Of a DNA stretch of 64,000 bases, positions 10,032 to 63,253 are shown piece after piece. The first letter of the stretch is position 1; every line of letters starts with the position of its first letter. Made by a program: the position numbers and the translations under genes. The notes below the pieces were generated by a model that was not told where the DNA came from, did no database searches, and saw only the letters and a program-made list of their open reading frames with translations. Source of the stretch: a virus; IMG/VR virus record IMGVR_UViG_3300049846_001037, positions 141,427 through 205,426 of that record; one strand, given 5' to 3'.

Positions 10032-11327
10032 TTATCTCTCCCTTCTCTTCATACCTGGTATTTGGATGGGATTATTTTCAACCTTCTTGGGGGCGTTTGT
10101 TTCGCCTCCCGATGTGTCTATCGTAACATTAATTGACGGTGTGTTCTCAACAGGCCCATCGAGGCTAGAAACAGTCTTTCTCTCAATCTTCTTGGAACCA
10201 GGAGTGGTATTGAAAAGACCTCCAACGCCACCACTGCCAAAGTCAACATTGATACCATCATCAAGCCTATTCTGCTGGGTCTTGATCTTCTGGTATCCCT
10301 TCCTTACACTTCTCATCATCTCATCAATGTGTTCACTGGGCAAAGCAAGTCCATTGAAGAGAACGTAGACTCGCAGGAACTTCACGCTCTCGTCGTTGTA
10401 AACACCCCTAAAAAACATACCGCCGTCCAGATACGAGCTAACGTGATCAAAGACGGCGTTGATGGCCTTGGCTGAGTCAACGGTTTGAAGCGTCTTCTCT
10501 GAACCAACTATGATGACTCCGCAAGCGGAGGCTGTTTTGAGGTCGAAGCCATCCATAAAGAAATGCTTGGCTATGTTGTCGCTGACGGTCTCAGGCGTAA
10601 AGTCCTCGGCTATCTCAAAGTCTCCAATGGCGCAAACGCCACCAGTGCTTAGGAGTCTCTTTAGATCCTGCCTGTCGAGAGCAGACACATACTTGGATGG
10701 TTTCTGAGAGTATTCGTTGAACTTCCTGATGACCGAAACGATGGCGCTGTTTAGCGGTCCCCAGAAGTTTGCAGCCGTGGGAGCGAACTCATCTACGAGC
10801 TTGTTGTTGTCAACTACGATGAGTGGGCTAATGGCTGCTTGCTGGGCGTTCTGATGGATTTCCTTGAGGTTGTCTAGAGCGTTGACGAACACGAGGGTTG
10901 ATTCATTCATGAGTGGCAGCGTATAGATTGCGCCTACATTGAGACCCAATTCTGCGGCTATCTGCGAGACCACAATACCAAGTCCGCCACCTGTTCCACC
11001 ACCGCCACCAATGCAAACCAAGACCTGCTCTGTGTTCTCGTTGACCTTGCTTCGTATGAACTTTGCCACACCGTCATAAAAGTCGTCGATGGATTTTCTT
11101 ACAACGTTGGGGTCTTTACCTGCGCCGGTACCCTTTGTGATAGGCACCAAAAACTTGTTGTCTTCGCTGAGTTGCAGACCATCAAGATCCGCTTTAGCTG
11201 TGTTGATTGCTATGACGTTATTGAAGCCCTGGAATGCAAACTCCTGAGCAATGCGGCCACCAGCTTCACCAGCGCCTATGATTAGAACATTTTTGTTTAA
11301 GATAGAATCTACGTCCACTGTCACCAT
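10032..11327 (-). CDS. Tubulin/FtsZ-superfamily GTPase
   Basis: A 431-residue cytoskeletal GTPase. The nucleotide loop reads GGGGGTGGG at residues 107-115, an early GAGEAGGR motif matches loop T1, and the T7 region has ALDRQDLKRLL with two aspartates spaced like the catalytic NxDxxD. The C-terminus is a long Ser/Thr-rich linker ending IPGMKRRER, which is like the basic FtsZ tail peptide. Phages use such filaments to position the replication compartment (PhuZ) or to segregate DNA (TubZ); which applies here is not clear. AAGGAG lies before the ATG. Confidence 0.88.
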   Translation of the reverse strand: MVTVDVDSILNKNVLIIGAGEAGGRIAQEFAFQGFNNVIAINTAKADLDGLQLSEDNKFLVPITKGTGAGKDPNVVRKSIDDFYDGVAKFIRSKVNENTEQVLVCIGGGGGTGGGLGIVVSQIAAELGLNVGAIYTLPLMNESTLVFVNALDNLKEIHQNAQQAAISPLIVVDNNKLVDEFAPTAANFWGPLNSAIVSVIRKFNEYSQKPSKYVSALDRQDLKRLLSTGGVCAIGDFEIAEDFTPETVSDNIAKHFFMDGFDLKTASACGVIIVGSEKTLQTVDSAKAINAVFDHVSSYLDGGMFFRGVYNDESVKFLRVYVLFNGLALPSEHIDEMMRSVRKGYQKIKTQQNRLDDGINVDFGSGGVGGLFNTTPGSKKIERKTVSSLDGPVENTPSINVTIDTSGGETNAPKKVENNPIQIPGMKRRER

Positions 11328-11360: not shown

Positions 11361-12353
11361 TCAATTATTTTTGTGTTGCTTTGACTTATTTAAGCTACCC
11401 AATATTTTTCTTTCCTTAGCATTGATGGACCTTGGGAAATTGACGTTTAGCCTAAAGTAATGATCCCCTTGTTTTTTTACCCCATAACCCTTAGCGCATA
11501 CAACAGTATTGGGATTGGAGCATTCTGGGATTTCTACATCAGCCAAGCCATGTATGGTGCTTGCTTTTACTTTGCCACCCAATATGCACTGTAAGTAGTC
11601 AACATCAAGTATTGAGTAAATATCATTTCCATCTCTCTCATATTTCTCGTGGGGTTTTATCTCTATGTGAAGCAGCAGATCTCCATACTCACCCGTGCGT
11701 CCTTTGGTGTTGCCCCGTCCTGCAGCCCTGAGTATTTGTCCACTGGCAATGCCCTCAGGTATCTTGATTGACAACTCTGACTCTTTACGAACATAGATGT
11801 TTCCATGACACTTGCTGCACTTGATCTTCTTACCTTTTCCATGACAGGTATCACAGGTCTTTTGAATGGTCACAAAGCCATTGGACTGAACCTGAACGCC
11901 ACGTCCGCCACATGTCCCACACTCTTCATAGGCATAGTCGCCATGCTTCTCTTTGTGCGCCTCGCAGACATCGCAGATATCGTATTGGGCATACCTCACG
12001 TTCTTCTCGGACCCAAAGCAGGCCTCAAGAAACTCTATCTCAATGACCGCCTCAATGGTGGGATTGATGGTCTGAGTGGCTTTTTGCCTACGATAGAGTT
12101 CTTCGAATATGTCTTGCGGGGATGGGGGCCTGAATCCATGAGGGAAGCCACCAAAGTCTGGCTGCTGAGGTCTATCGGCTTCGCCATCAACTATCTTTTG
12201 GTAAGCCTCTGAGATTTCTTTGAACTTGGTCTCTGCGCCAGGATCCTTGTTGATGTCTGGGTGGTATTTCTTGGCCAACTTTCTATAAGCTGCCTTAACC
12301 TCATCTTGTGAGGCACCCTTTTTCAAGCCAAGGATTGAGTAGTAGTCCTTCAT
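11361..12353 (-). CDS. dnaJ: DnaJ (Hsp40) co-chaperone
   Basis: Type I Hsp40 that should stimulate host DnaK. The J-domain with HPD (residues 31-33) is followed by a short Gly/Phe/Pro linker, then a cysteine-rich region with [16 protein letters not shown] and CSKCHGN knuckles, and C-terminal substrate-binding sheets. The first knuckle (CDVCEAHK) deviates from CxxCxGxG. At 330 residues it is slightly shorter than cellular DnaJ. It joins ClpX and a Ycf46-like ATPase in a chaperone-rich block. Confidence 0.93.
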
Positions 12354-13125: not shown

Positions 13126-14391
13126 CTAAGCTGCTTTCAGTTGAGAAAACCCCTTTAGGCGGTTCTCAACGAAGTCCTTGTCTATATTATACGTCTTTTC
13201 CTTAGATCCTGGTATGGAAAACATCAAGTCATTTAAGACTTTTTCCATCACGGACCTCAATGCCCTAGCTCCTATCTTCATAGCCAAAGCATGTTCGACC
13301 ACTGCATCGAGAGCTTCTTCGGTGAAGTTCAGGGTCTTCTCGTCCATCTCAAACAGAGCCTTATATTGCTTCAAGACGGCATTCTTGGGCTCAGTGAGAA
13401 TCCTTCTTAGATCTTCTTTCTTTAGCTCGTCCAATGTGACTAGGACAGGAAGCCGACCAAGGAACTCTGGAATCAGACCATACTCAATAAGGTCTTCGTG
13501 AGTGACCATATGGAGCATTTTCTTCTTCTGTTCCTCTGCCTCTTTCTTGCTCAGGGACTCAGAACCGAACCCGATTCCAGACTTGTCCTTGTTCACCCTC
13601 GCTTCAATGGTGTCGATGATGTGTGCAAATGCGCCACCACAGATAAAGAGGATTTTGGACGTATCGATGAGAACGCTTGGTGCGCCTGGGTGCTTCCTTC
13701 CCAGGTCCACCGGAGCATTAGCCATAGTGCCTTCTAGCAGCTTCAACAAAGCCTGCTGGACACCCTCTCCCGACACGTCCCTTGACAAAGACGCCCCAGC
13801 ACCCATCTTCCTGATCTTGTCGATCTCATCAATGAAGATGATGCCAGTCTGAGCCCTTGCTATCTTCTCTTCTGGAGTCTTACCCTCTGCTTTCTGAACA
13901 AGCCTTGTCAGCATTGTCTCAACGTCATCACCGACATAGCCAGCCTGGCTAAAGGTGGTTGCATCAACGATGACGAATGGGACGCTGAAAAGATCCGCCA
14001 AATGCTTGACCATGTAGGTCTTGCCGCTACCACTGGGTCCAAGCATCAGGACGTTTGACTTGTCTATCTCCACATCCTCAAACTTCCTTGTTTGAGAATG
14101 CCTCAGCTTCTTATAGTGATTGTAGACAGCCGAGCAGAGGTATTTCTTTGCCTCTTCCTGACCTATGACGTAATTGTTCAGATGCTCCAACATTTCTGCT
14201 GGCGTATGCATCTTGATGGTGATGTTGCCTTCTGCTGCCTTTGTCTCGCCTTTGGAAAGACTGACGATGGCATGCATCTGCTCAATACAGTCATTGCAGA
14301 CTGCAATCTCACCCGAAGATGTGGAGAGGAGCTGCTTTACTTCCTCAGCTCCACGCCCACAGATAGCACACGATTTGCTTGGGGAAGCCAT
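13126..14391 (-). CDS. clpX: ClpX-like ATP-dependent unfoldase
   Basis: AAA+ unfoldase. The N-terminal zinc domain has Cys at residues 8, 11, 32 and 35, Walker A is GPSGSGKT (118-125), the pore loop is GYVGDD (150-155) and Walker B is FIDEID (185-190). A GIGFG loop at 271-275 matches the ClpP-docking IGF loop, so it could dock on host ClpP; no clpP is seen in the window. Full length, 421 residues. It follows the Ycf46-like ATPase by two bases, implying co-expression. It may redirect host proteolysis during infection. Confidence 0.94.
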
Positions 14392-45662: not shown

Positions 45663-45680
45663 TTACTTAAATTTAAGTAA
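45663..45680. repeat. 18-bp dyad element, copy 7 (perfect)
   Basis: TTACTTAAATTTAAGTAA, a perfect 18-base palindrome, preceded by GATCCCCGGGAGCTGG. Confidence 0.92.
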
Positions 45681-54906: not shown

Positions 54907-54924
54907 TTACTTAAATTTAAGTAG
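54907..54924. repeat. 18-bp dyad element, copy 11
   Basis: Arms TACTTA/TAAGTA with AATT in the centre. Confidence 0.88.
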
Positions 54925-59043: not shown

Positions 59044-59061
59044 CTACTTAAATTTAAGTAA
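59044..59061. repeat. 18-bp dyad element, copy 12
   Basis: Arms TACTTA/TAAGTA with AATT in the centre; GATGTCCGGTC follows as in copy 4. Confidence 0.88.
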
Positions 59062-59109
59062 GCGCCGATGTCCGGTCGTTGGGCGATGAGCTCTACCCAG
59101 AAAACAGAA

Positions 59110-59134
59110 AAGCCCCACCCTTTCGGATGAGGCT
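59110..59134 (-). terminator. Rho-independent terminator
   Basis: AGCCCCA/TGAGGCT stem with one mismatch, a CCCTTTCGG loop and a TTTTCTG tail. Confidence 0.78.
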
Positions 59135-59197
59135 CTTCTGTGCACCCGGCGTACCACCCTATGCTGATCCATGGGTCATAGGGAACCCGTCTTACAC

Positions 59198-59452
59198 TTA
59201 ATACCGATGCTTGATGGCGGCGAATTGGGCGAAGGTGAGGGTAGGCTTGATGCCCTTCAACTGGCAGTAAGCCTTCCACAACTCTCTGTCGCAGGTGTAT
59301 TCGCCAGGAGTCGGCTCACACTCGATGTTGTCGATGAACTGAGCCGCTGTGTGGGAGTCGATGTCCTCCACACGCTCGAAGCCCCAGATGTCTTTGAGGT
59401 AATTGCGGCTCTCCCTCGAAAGGGGAAAAGCCGTCTTGAGGGTGGCGGACAT
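59198..59452 (-). CDS. Unknown protein
   Basis: An 84-residue helical protein with WKAYCQLKGIKPTLTFAQFAA near its end; the phrase TFAQW/F recurs in the protein at 60.3 kb (MTFAQWQKWV). Family unknown. Confidence 0.73.
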   Translation of the reverse strand: MSATLKTAFPLSRESRNYLKDIWGFERVEDIDSHTAAQFIDNIECEPTPGEYTCDRELWKAYCQLKGIKPTLTFAQFAAIKHRY

Positions 59453-59462
59453 CTTTGACTCC

Positions 59463-59561
59463 TTAGTGGTTGAAGTGCTGTACCACCGCTGCCCCGATGA
59501 CGAACAGGATGGCGATGACGATGACCAGTTCGACCAAGGTGAAGCCTCGTTGGTTACGCAT
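59463..59561 (-). CDS. Prepilin-like microprotein, 32 residues
   Basis: MRNQRGFTLVELVIVIAIL... has the type IV prepilin signal: a short positive leader, glycine before the cut site, phenylalanine at +1, glutamate at +5, then a ~20-residue hydrophobic helix. Nothing but FNH follows the helix, so there is no pilin head domain. The stop lies ten bases from the next start. It could be taken up by the host prepilin peptidase and pilus machinery and disturb it; that is inference. No upstream GGAGG is seen; translation is probably coupled to the gene before it, whose stop lies two bases away. Confidence 0.7.
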   Translation of the reverse strand: MRNQRGFTLVELVIVIAILFVIGAAVVQHFNH

Positions 59562-59563
59562 GA

Positions 59564-59776
59564 CTACCTCGAAGGGGAACGATGGACTTGCTGACGCCAG
59601 ATGTGGGCGGTGATGGTTCGGTCAGCCTCCATCTTCTTGTCCAGAAGCTTGTTGTACTTCCTCCGTCCATAGGCTTGGGCGGCGATGAGCTTGCGGCAGA
59701 GAGCAGCCAGCCTCTTGACATTGCGAGGCGTAGGGTTCTTGAGAGCCGCTTGGATGACTGCCTCTTGCTGCGTCAT
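59564..59776 (-). CDS. Unknown basic helical protein
   Basis: A 70-residue basic helical protein (RNVKRLAALCRKLIAAQAYGRRK). Family unknown. It is directly upstream of the prepilin-like frame. Confidence 0.72.
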   Translation of the reverse strand: MTQQEAVIQAALKNPTPRNVKRLAALCRKLIAAQAYGRRKYNKLLDKKMEADRTITAHIWRQQVHRSPSR

Positions 59777-59788
59777 GTCCGACTCCTA

Positions 59789-59974
59789 CTAGATGAGCTT
59801 CTTGCGGCGGAGTTTGGTCCGCAGGTTCTTGAGAGCCTTGATCTGGTTGCGGAGCTGAACGCCCTCCAGGCTGTGACCCAGATCGTGGATGCTGACGTTC
59901 TGGAGGTAGGTCTTGTACTTCTTCTCCAAGACCTTGATCTCTTCGTTGATGACATCGCTCACACGGAGTCCCAT
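59789..59974 (-). CDS. Unknown helical protein
   Basis: A 61-residue helical protein (VINEEIKVLEKKYKTYL) with a basic end (LRRKKLI). Probably a small coiled coil. Function unknown. Confidence 0.7.
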   Translation of the reverse strand: MGLRVSDVINEEIKVLEKKYKTYLQNVSIHDLGHSLEGVQLRNQIKALKNLRTKLRRKKLI

Positions 59975-59977
59975 GAC

Positions 59978-60313
59978 TTACCTCAAGAGGGATTGGAGTT
60001 GCGTCATTTCCTCGGTCAGAGTTTCATGGCGGCGTTTGGGACTGTTCCAAGAATCAAGATAGTCCCTGTCCACCAGAGCCGCAGCAGCATCCTTGACGGC
60101 TCGTTGGATATGCTTCTGAGGAACCTCAACCTTCATCTTGAGAAGGTCCAAGACCACACCAACCAAGACAGTTGGATTGTAGTCGTTTGCCTTGATCTTG
60201 TCAAGCGCCCTGCTCAGGTTGTTCTCAGTCAGAGATGCCCTGTTGCGACGGAAGTAGTCCATCTCGTCTTGGACATCATCGCAGGCAGTGCTCTGTTCGC
60301 CCCAGGCTCCCAT
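59978..60313 (-). CDS. DUF4259-like protein
   Basis: A 111-residue protein beginning MGAWGEQSTACDDVQDEM, like the MGAWG-x-G-x-F-x-N-D start of DUF4259 proteins, though the rest is less similar. Function unknown. Confidence 0.6.
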   Translation of the reverse strand: MGAWGEQSTACDDVQDEMDYFRRNRASLTENNLSRALDKIKANDYNPTVLVGVVLDLLKMKVEVPQKHIQRAVKDAAAALVDRDYLDSWNSPKRRHETLTEEMTQLQSLLR

Positions 60314-60316
60314 GAC

Positions 60317-60745
60317 TTACCTCAGATGCTTCGGTTGGCGGTTGACCCACTTCTGCCATTGAGCGAAGGTCATGTCCGCAGGCAGGTTGTGGAAGGCGAG
60401 GTACTTCTCGGTGATGCTGTGGTCATCGGGCCAGACTTCCTTGGGCTCCTCTTCACGGTTCTCGATGAAGAGCGCCACCCAGCCCAGAGGCAACTGGCTG
60501 ATGTCCTTGATGCCCTTGGGCTCCCCATCGTACATCTGCTTGATGTACTTGATCTCCGATGGGGTCAGCGTGGTCGTCACCTTGTTGCGAGAGTGGAGCT
60601 GCTTCTTGAAGGCTTCGATCTGAGCCTTCTTCTTCTTGGCGTCTTTCCGCAGATGCTTGACGGTCTTCCGCAGCTCGTCCATGATCTGACCAGCGAGGTC
60701 ATCGTCGGGCTTGGCAATGTGGACAGCGTGGTTTTGGTGAGGCAT
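60317..60745 (-). CDS. Unknown helical protein
   Basis: A 142-residue protein with a basic coiled region (RKDAKKKKAQIEAFKKQL) and a C-terminal MTFAQWQKWVNRQ, similar to a segment of the 59.2 kb protein. GGAGG precedes the chosen ATG. Family unknown. Confidence 0.74.
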   Translation of the reverse strand: MPHQNHAVHIAKPDDDLAGQIMDELRKTVKHLRKDAKKKKAQIEAFKKQLHSRNKVTTTLTPSEIKYIKQMYDGEPKGIKDISQLPLGWVALFIENREEEPKEVWPDDHSITEKYLAFHNLPADMTFAQWQKWVNRQPKHLR

Positions 60746-60770
60746 GGCGTTCCTCCTTGATGTTGAACCC

Positions 60771-60799
60771 ATCATAAACCAAACGCCTTAACTTGTCAA
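60771..60799 (-). promoter_or_regulatory. Sigma70-type promoter; upstream stop inside -35
   Basis: TTGACA, 17 bases, TATGAT. The TGA of the 52-residue gene is part of TTGACA. Confidence 0.82.
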
Positions 60800-60954
60800 T
60801 AGTAGCCCTTCAGCCTAATGAGAGACCAGCGAAGTTTATATAGATTGGTGAGGGCTTCATCAATGGTCTTGATGAACACAGGGCATCCAGCAGTCCTCTT
60901 GAGTCTCTGCATCTTCGTTATCTCTTTGCTGACGATTTCTCCATTGGCTGTCAT
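60796..60954 (-). CDS. Unknown small protein, 52 residues
   Basis: A frame MTANGEIVSKEITKMQRLK... coupled to the TilS gene as ATGA and ending in the next promoter's -35 box. Helical and basic. Function unknown; might be an accessory of TilS, by position only. Confidence 0.7.
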   Translation of the reverse strand: MTANGEIVSKEITKMQRLKRTAGCPVFIKTIDEALTNLYKLRWSLIRLKGYY

Positions 60955-61562
60955 TTGACCTCCAATGCCCTGACCTTCTTTGCGATGACTTTATGCATCC
61001 CAGGGTTGATGAGCAGAGCCTCTGGAACAATGCCATGTCGAACCCTATTACGAGCATGACCCATATCCTCGTTGGTCATGTCCTCAGTCCAAGGAACATG
61101 CTTGTTCTCGGCATAGATGATCAGGTCAGATTTTGTGGTAAGGAGGAAAGGACGGACGACATTCTTATTGCGGTAGGGGATGAGTTTGGGAACCCCATGA
61201 CAGGCACCCATCAGCCATGTCTCAATCTGGTCATCGAGATGATGGGCGGTGATGACTGGGACTTCAAGGCTATGGAAAAACTTGTAGCGTTCATCTCGCC
61301 AGTATTCTTCCCAAGACTTGCTCTTAGGCTTGTCCGAAGAAATCCTCTGAGCAATCATCCCAGTCAGTCCCATCTGGGTGAGGAAGTCCAGAGCCTTGGC
61401 GGAAGTCTCAGTGCCGTGGTCAAAGAAGACAGGGGCAATACGCCGCTTGCCATTGACCCCATGCTTGAGGAAGTGATAGACGGCCATGGAGTCTACGCCA
61501 CCAGAGACGGCAACGTAATGCAACTGGTCATATTGAGGAAGGCTTCCGAGAATCTTTAGCAT
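60951..61562 (-). CDS. tilS: TilS-like tRNA(Ile)-lysidine synthase
   Basis: A PP-loop ATPase: SGGVDSM near residue 20, ITAHHLDDQIETWLM, VRPFL, then DMTNEDMGHARNRVRH, the signature of TilS. TilS changes C34 of tRNA-Ile(CAU) to lysidine, so that it reads AUA instead of AUG. A tRNA-Ile2 gene with CAU lies ~2 kb upstream, which supports the call. At 203 residues it has the catalytic domain without the C-terminal tRNA-binding domains of long TilS. A GTG nine bases upstream is an alternative start. Confidence 0.85.
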   Translation of the reverse strand: MLKILGSLPQYDQLHYVAVSGGVDSMAVYHFLKHGVNGKRRIAPVFFDHGTETSAKALDFLTQMGLTGMIAQRISSDKPKSKSWEEYWRDERYKFFHSLEVPVITAHHLDDQIETWLMGACHGVPKLIPYRNKNVVRPFLLTTKSDLIIYAENKHVPWTEDMTNEDMGHARNRVRHGIVPEALLINPGMHKVIAKKVRALEVK

Positions 61563-61903
61563 AGCGCCCACACCGTCCTGTCTGCCCGCATCTCCACCAA
61601 CCTAGCCCTCTCAGCCTTCTCGTTGGTGTCAGCGAAGTAGAAGTGGTCAGCCTTGTAAGGGTTGTACTTCACCTGCCGCAGTTTGGCTTCGGAGCTCAAC
61701 ACTACACCAAACTCAGGTATCTTGCCAATGACGAAGGCGTGGACATTCTTACGCTTCTGCTCAAGGACTCGCTTATGCCCACCCGGACGAACACGGAATT
61801 CCACATTCGTCACAACCACAGACTTCTCATGCCCCACAACCTTGCCCCCAACCATCAGAGACCAGATGGACTTATGCAGGTTGTAGTAGATGTAGGTCTT
61901 CAT
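61556..61903 (-). CDS. Unknown protein
   Basis: A 115-residue beta-rich protein with basic middle (RPGGHKRVLEQKRKN). First gene of the TilS operon, with AGGAGG before the ATG. Possibly a nucleic-acid-binding partner; family unknown. Confidence 0.74.
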   Translation of the reverse strand: MKTYIYYNLHKSIWSLMVGGKVVGHEKSVVVTNVEFRVRPGGHKRVLEQKRKNVHAFVIGKIPEFGVVLSSEAKLRQVKYNPYKADHFYFADTNEKAERARLVEMRADRTVWALC

Positions 61904-61999: not shown

Positions 62000-62017
62000 C
62001 TACTTAAATTTAAGTAA
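62000..62017. repeat. 18-bp dyad element, copy 13
   Basis: Arms TACTTA/TAAGTA with AATT in the centre. Confidence 0.88.
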
Positions 62018-63075: not shown

Positions 63076-63170
63076 TGGTAGGGGTAGAGGGATTCGAACC
63101 CCCGACGATTTCCATCAAGCCAATCTCTCGACTGTCCGATGGCCCCAGGTACCGCTCCAGGCATACCCCT
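63076..63170 (-). tRNA. Class II-like tRNA with abnormal anticodon arm
   Basis: The acceptor stem AGGGGTA/TACCCCT, T-arm GGGGG-TTCGAAT-CCCTC, D-loop GGAGCGGT, a variable arm (GAT-GGAA-ATC) and encoded CCA are all good. The anticodon arm is odd: GCCATC pairs with GATTGGC around a 12-base loop containing GTCGA, instead of 5 bp and 7 bases. A loop with CGA (Ser) can be read but its stem pairs poorly. It may be a serine-type tRNA or a tRNA that lost decoding. Confidence 0.7.
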
Positions 63171-63176
63171 ATAAAA

Positions 63177-63253
63177 TGGTGGTCCCGGCAGGACTCGAAC
63201 CTGCGACCAAGCGATTATGAGTCGCCTGCTCTAACCAACTGAGCTACGGGACC
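63177..63253 (-). tRNA. tRNA-Ile2 (CAU)
   Basis: Full cloverleaf with stem GGTCCCG/CGGGACC, encoded CCA, and anticodon loop CTCATAA. The stretch around D-stem and anticodon (GAGCAGGCGACTCATAATCG) equals, as I recall it, the E. coli tRNA-Ile2, so CAU here should be modified to lysidine and read AUA. The TilS-like gene nearby supports this against an elongator Met tRNA. Confidence 0.88.

Follow-up and report, generated by a model that had tools for sequence, protein, structure and literature searches.

Why would a phage keep a gene of only 32 codons that begins as a type IV prepilin begins and ends almost as soon as the membrane helix of a pilin is complete? This question is raised by a short frame in the window, namely the whole stretch of 64,000 nt of viral DNA analyzed here. 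It can be divided into three parts: whether the frame is a genuine gene with a genuine prepilin signal, whether other phages carry anything like it, and what such a product would do to the host.

Prepilin signal of the 32-codon frame

The frame (59463..59561, minus strand) starts with the ATG at 59561, ends with TAA, and is translated into MRNQRGFTLVELVIVIAILFVIGAAVVQHFNH; it is referred to as the mini-prepilin gene hereafter. In the preliminary description, a glycine at the cut site, Phe at +1 and Glu at +5 had been read from this frame, and we confirmed all three. The leader MRNQRG (codons 1–6; 59544..59561, minus strand) ends with Gly −1 at the predicted prepilin peptidase site, as located by an alignment of the motif in 12 phage prepilins, and is followed by the mature part, FTLVELVIVIAILFVIGAAVVQHFNH. 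The signal had also been called complete, and this is a solid claim: the mini-prepilin scored 40.1 bits against Pfam PF07963 N_methyl (cut-off 21.2; E 2.2e-10; positions 1–26 of 27) and 25.6 bits against NCBIfam TIGR02532 (cut-off 16.3), thus exceeding the curated cut-offs of both models of the prepilin cleavage/methylation motif. A six-frame search of all 205,426 bp of the record returned it as the sole prepilin-motif match (E 2.7e-10). Since it is the only match in the record and has a high score, chance is a very poor explanation, and a chance origin of the motif was ruled out by the profile score. No prepilin peptidase (peptidase A24) was found in the phage record.

The predicted mature product has 26 residues, with a Kyte-Doolittle maximum of 3.10 over 19 residues, and its AlphaFold2 model is one helix spanning residues 9–31 (mean pLDDT 88). 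The description of a hydrophobic helix with almost nothing after it was therefore accurate. Pilins and pseudopilins continue into α1-C and a globular C-terminal domain, both of which are missing here: the mini-prepilin ends 26 residues past the cut site. It also falls far under the cut-off of every pilin/pseudopilin equivalog (GspG, GspH, PilA, ComGC, and others), for example with 23.8 versus 80 for GspH. The nearest solved structures by sequence are Geobacter PilA-N, which is the best match (E 4e-5), MshA, and PilA.

The gene run around the mini-prepilin gene

The mini-prepilin gene is the fifth of six minus-strand genes. At the head of the run, a sigma-70-like promoter, TTGACA-17-TATGAT, is predicted by consensus match (11/12) at 60771..60799. 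Gene 1 is listed with 152 aa (60317..60775) in the list of open reading frames; since the promoter overlaps this listed start, a later in-frame ATG is the likelier one. Gene 2 (111 aa; 59978..60313), gene 3 (61 aa; 59789..59974), and gene 4 (70 aa; 59564..59776) follow, and gene 6 (84 aa; 59198..59452) has its own AAGGAG. The run ends with a hairpin terminator (59104..59141, minus strand) that has a 17-bp stem and a folding energy of −36.4 kcal/mol (z −6.1 versus shuffles). The profile searches found no convincing family and no functional hint for any of the five other genes, all of which are orphans.

The claim that the frame lies in a coupled gene run with normal spacing held for both of its junctions: 2 bp separate the end of gene 4 from the mini-prepilin start, 10 bp separate the mini-prepilin stop from gene 6, and both the mini-prepilin gene and gene 6 have ribosome sites. 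The Shine-Dalgarno sequence of the former, GAGG (59567..59570, minus strand), is placed 5 nt before the ATG and overlaps the end region of gene 4. The GC3 of the mini-prepilin gene (0.79) sits inside the 0.63–0.85 interval spanned by its neighbors in the run. A frameshift-broken pilin was rejected as an explanation: the following gene starts immediately and matches no pilin, and neither Pfam nor PHROGs revealed a pilin head domain in gene 6. With no recognizable head domain downstream, the mini-prepilin does not appear to be a broken pilin. The six genes form an apparent operon; judging from these sequence signals, the mini-prepilin is very likely translated, and it is a real, probably early-expressed phage gene.

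A repeated element was also noticed at the boundaries of such runs. The 16-bp palindrome TACTTAAATTTAAGTA occurs in 13 copies, of which 8 are exact and none would be expected by chance, between 38274 and 62016 of the window (for example at 59045–59060, 62001–62016, 54908–54923, and 45664–45679). Within the record, exact copies are confined to the final 26 kb. An operon-end hairpin precedes most of the copies, and all but one of the 13 lie 27–72 bp ahead of a sigma-70-like promoter, mostly TTGACA-17-TATACT-like and on the minus strand. The terminator-palindrome-promoter order thus appears as a repeated cassette, in which the palindrome is perhaps the binding site of a phage early-gene regulator.

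Relatives of the locus and the host

No syntenic relative of the run was found when viral contigs were scanned with the 152-, 111-, and 84-aa neighbors, with a tubulin-like protein, and with a TilS-like protein, nor did a scan of viral contigs with the degenerate pattern RGFTLVELVIVI give a syntenic relative of the mini-prepilin locus. The three best terminase relatives are fragments of 12–39 kb, in which the prepilin motif is absent. The terminase of the record is about 30% identical to Bacillus phage terminases; for the DnaB-like helicase, the terminase, and ClpX, many groups lie at roughly the same distance, so that none of the three points to a host.

Some of the proteins encoded elsewhere in the window deserve mention in their own right. 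The tubulin-like protein is a divergent member of the tubulin/FtsZ family (10032–11327; PF00091, 51.8 bits), whose gene adjoins a DnaJ-like frame (11361–12353) and a ClpX-like frame (13126–14391); at the sensitivity of the search, viral contigs yielded no relatives of it. The TilS-like protein is a PP-loop ATPase resembling tRNA-Ile lysidine synthetase (60951–61571; PF01171, 98 bits), with 42–47% identical relatives on two other IMG/VR contigs. The protein encoded at 61556–61903 clearly belongs to the Mycobacterium phage L5 gp82 family (PF25735, 102 bits). Near the record end, genes for tRNA-Pro(cgg) and tRNA-Met(cat) were found (63076–63253), the latter being up to 91% identical to the tRNA-Met genes of phiKZ-like phages.

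Headless prepilins in other phages

Using the mini-prepilin and two relatives as queries, we searched 50,697 phage records by tblastn. Prepilin motifs were found almost only in phages named for Pseudomonas, Aeromonas, Vibrio, Acinetobacter, Delftia, Xanthomonas, and Synechococcus. Short frames without a head domain, referred to as headless prepilins hereafter, were found in several of these groups. Among the Aeromonas T4-like phages, they have 28 aa in Aeh1 (ORF040c), avDM12, AsFcp_4, and Ah1, and 27 aa in phiAS5 and phiWae14. In the Aeromonas Shenzhenvirus phages AhP_Mru1 and AhSzw-1 they have 37 aa, in Delftia phage PhiW-14 44 aa, in the Pseudomonas Nankokuvirus phages (PAK_P3 group) 59–62 aa, in the Vibrio KVP40-like phages nt-1, KVP40, and VH7D 61–67 aa, and in Vibrio phage F86 61 aa. 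The other phage proteins with the motif are longer (82–213 aa). The headless frames that were scanned score 32–39 bits with PF07963. Gly −1, Phe +1, Thr, Leu, and Glu +5 are invariant in all 12 aligned phage prepilins, where the invariance of Glu +5 is partly built in, because the search for relatives relied on the motif.

In the Aeromonas T4-like phages, across genera, the DNA identity persists at the headless frame, yet the frame is usually unannotated: conserved frames of 27–28 aa without annotation are located at L015:1504-1587 in phiAS5, L156:637-723 in AsFcp_4, and L157:637-723 in Ah1. The exception is Aeh1, whose GenBank record notes a likeness to the N-terminal part of a pilin of secretion but assigns no function. 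Aeh1 ORF040c and the syntenic frames of Ah1, AsFcp_4, avDM12-TAAL, phiAS5, and phiWae14 resemble the mini-prepilin in consisting of the motif and one helix only and in having a good ribosome site. They differ from it in their position after nrdB, in a leader that is just MKG, and in showing no similarity to it beyond the motif. The Nankokuvirus PAK_P3 gp139 family (phrog_10597; gp166c in LSL4) likewise consists of short proteins that open with the motif and are encoded in an overlapping run of small genes, but its members carry a conserved hydrophilic tail; the mini-prepilin matches positions 1–27 of the 59-residue profile (E 2.6e-5) rather than its whole length. In the main text of the paper on the PAK_P3 transcriptome, the gene goes unmentioned. 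Fuller pilins encoded by phages (phrog_3433; Synechococcus phage ACG-2014f, Vibrio 033B, Pseudomonas LESphi3/F10) have the same signal and helix as the mini-prepilin but reach 127–213 aa with a C-terminal domain. The location of one of these is odd for a pilin: in Pseudomonas F10-like phages, a 213-aa protein with the motif (L006:2986-3627) is encoded in the tail block, flanked by the major tail gene and the tape measure gene.

As an informal class, we propose headless prepilins to be proteins that have the prepilin motif, at most about 70 aa, phage gene neighbors, and their own ribosome site; the mini-prepilin of the window has all of these. Their phages span Straboviridae, Demerecviridae, Nankokuvirus, and Ionavirus, in addition to the unassigned phage of the window, and, besides the phage of the window, six or more phage groups have a similar headless pilin. 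This recurrence suggests that phages may repeatedly use headless pilins against host pili or related secretion machinery. Because little is common across the groups beyond the motif and the helix, either repeated capture and trimming or a very old spread would be needed.

Controls for length and selection

The shortness of the phage frames was compared with that of bacterial ones. In eight bacterial genomes having the motif, out of 14 searched, only 2 of the 127 motif frames had 60 aa or fewer, both from one draft genome, while 7 of the 14 phage lineages had a form of 70 aa or fewer (Fisher p 6e-7, a rough guide since the lineages were hand-picked and length was measured differently in phages and bacteria). 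Among the 80 IMG/VR motif matches listed, both short and full-length forms occur, 10 having at most 70 codons after the motif. The short forms sit on longer contigs (median 40 versus 22 kb, p 0.005), and many of the fuller-length pilins, on shorter contigs, may be host DNA. Several matches were set aside as probable bacterial DNA, namely the Acinetobacter phage MD-2021a contigs (xcpT, ppdD), a Salmonella contig, and Microcystis phage MaAM05 (uvrA, clsA), and a match in Xanthomonas SB4 was ignored for being antisense to annotated genes. As for selection, dN (0.06–0.11) is lower than dS (0.16–0.39) in the Nankokuvirus pairs. The copies of the Aeromonas 28-aa group differ by at most two residues, so few that no ratio can be formed, and have the same length in four phages.

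What the mini-prepilin may do

Gly −1 is required for prepilin cleavage, and Glu +5 serves mainly for methylation and for fitting the subunit into the filament, being dispensable for cleavage. The retention of both residues points to docking of the matured helix with pilins or the platform, beyond its contact with the peptidase. From known prepilin biology, the following course can be pictured. The host prepilin peptidase would cut the mini-prepilin after Gly6 and N-methylate the Phe, leaving a 26-residue inner-membrane helix that resembles the α1-N stalk of a pilin or pseudopilin. This helix would most likely dock, via Phe1 and Glu5, at the assembly platform or on host pilins, and, without a head domain, it would be a dominant-negative subunit lowering the assembly of the type IV pilus or the type II pseudopilus. 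A possible gain for the phage would be the exclusion of pilus-dependent phages from the infected cell. We give an even chance to this proposal, in which the mini-prepilin is a headless prepilin that is trimmed by the host and acts dominant-negatively at type IV pilus or type II secretion assembly. The literature search found no experiments on any headless phage prepilin and, outside subscription journals, no publications on phage mini-prepilins.

Phages are known to weaken type IV pilus function with small proteins, among them blockers of twitching that bind PilB, PilZ, or a histidine kinase: Tip and Aqs1 (both PilB) and Zip (PilZ) (PMC11656802), and PIT4 (PilS, FleS) and Gp21 (PilA/PilB expression) (PMC11656802, PMC11436027, PMC10714779). 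According to the descriptions in these papers, they act on motors, regulators, or expression and are not reported to be pilin-like, which sets them apart from the mini-prepilin. The earlier statement that some phages use pilin-like or pilus-binding small proteins thus stands in part: headless prepilins do recur in Pseudomonas, Aeromonas, Vibrio, and Delftia phages, but the known inhibitors are not described as pilin-like. One phage has both kinds of protein. Nankokuvirus LSL4 is lytic, uses the type IV pilus as its receptor, and encodes the pilus inhibitor PIT4 (PMC10714779); it also has the mini-prepilin gp166c. We rejected the identification of PIT4 with the mini-prepilin, because PIT4 is gp67 and has 131 aa.

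LSL4 bears on the strongest alternative, in which the helix would be a false report of the pilin level. By mimicking free inner-membrane pilin, it would turn off PilS or an equivalent and stop the transcription of the major pilin, leaving the assembly machine untouched. PilS responds to PilA in the inner membrane, as stated in PMC6058289 with reference to Kilmury and Burrows (2016), the mini-prepilin approximates the membrane-embedded portion of a pilin, and a Nankokuvirus carrying a mini-prepilin also hits PilS through PIT4 (PMC10714779). On the other hand, shutting off transcription seems slow for a lytic infection, and pilus sensing by PilS is not known in all of the hosts concerned; we regard this alternative as unlikely.

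Rather less probable still is a helper role, in which the product would join or prime filaments as a minor pilin and shift pilus or pseudopilus dynamics in favor of the phage, for example in retraction or secretion. Phages do keep fuller versions, since the 82–213 aa prepilins have C-terminal extensions or domains, and Geobacter PilA-N, the best structure match, is a naturally short pilin that, like the mini-prepilin, is mostly an α1 helix. PilA-N is cellular, has about 61 residues when mature, and works with a PilA-C partner. Against the helper role, no separate head-domain partner was recognized beside the mini-prepilin gene, and a 26-residue helix offers little surface for new contacts.

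Two further alternatives are both very improbable. In one, the mini-prepilin would be a decoy that competes for the prepilin peptidase and thereby reduces pilin and pseudopilin processing. As a substrate it is indeed minimal, with ideal surroundings of the cut site, and the record has no peptidase of its own, but such substrate competition would require high expression, and Glu +5 is invariant in the aligned set though dispensable for cleavage. In the other, the gene would be what is left of a host pilin gene that was captured and is now decaying. Truncation can yield short pilin fragments, and our searches gave no relative of the window copy that could show selection; against this, the end of the frame leads cleanly into the ribosome site of gene 6, nothing pilin-like follows it, short sizes recur across phage groups, and 27–28 codons are kept across Aeromonas phage genera. 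Finally, a small membrane protein of another role (lysis, membrane leak, or holin-like) with a merely prepilin-like start is highly improbable, because, although many phage membrane microproteins share the single hydrophobic helix and the short basic start, the match reaches 40 bits with GFTLxE correctly placed, and in other phages the gene adjoins nrdB, thymidylate synthase, or helicase rather than lysis genes.

Significance

Returning to dominant-negative interference, this interpretation is plausible for the mini-prepilin and may be regarded as strengthened by the recurrence of headless prepilins. More broadly, the headless prepilins could be a convergent takeover class, in which at least seven phage lineages keep only the signal and the membrane helix and add no more than a short tail; after maturation by the host peptidase, these would act as dominant-negative subunits or as a false pilin-level signal and shut down host pili or type II secretion in lytic infection. 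For this general proposal, our confidence falls a little short of an even balance. The gene of the window adds one more, very short, member to a class whose sequences already stand in databases, mostly without annotation, and which, as far as we have seen, is undescribed. As short genes are often left unannotated (phiAS5, Ah1, AsFcp_4), the class is probably larger than the databases show. The phage pilus blockers described in the papers cited above target the motor, its regulators, or gene expression; if the proposal is true, a stalk copy of 27–44 residues would be a different and very cheap pilus block that uses the processing enzyme of the host. Mini-prepilins would then also serve as a simple probe of what a lone pilin helix does at the assembly platform and at PilS.
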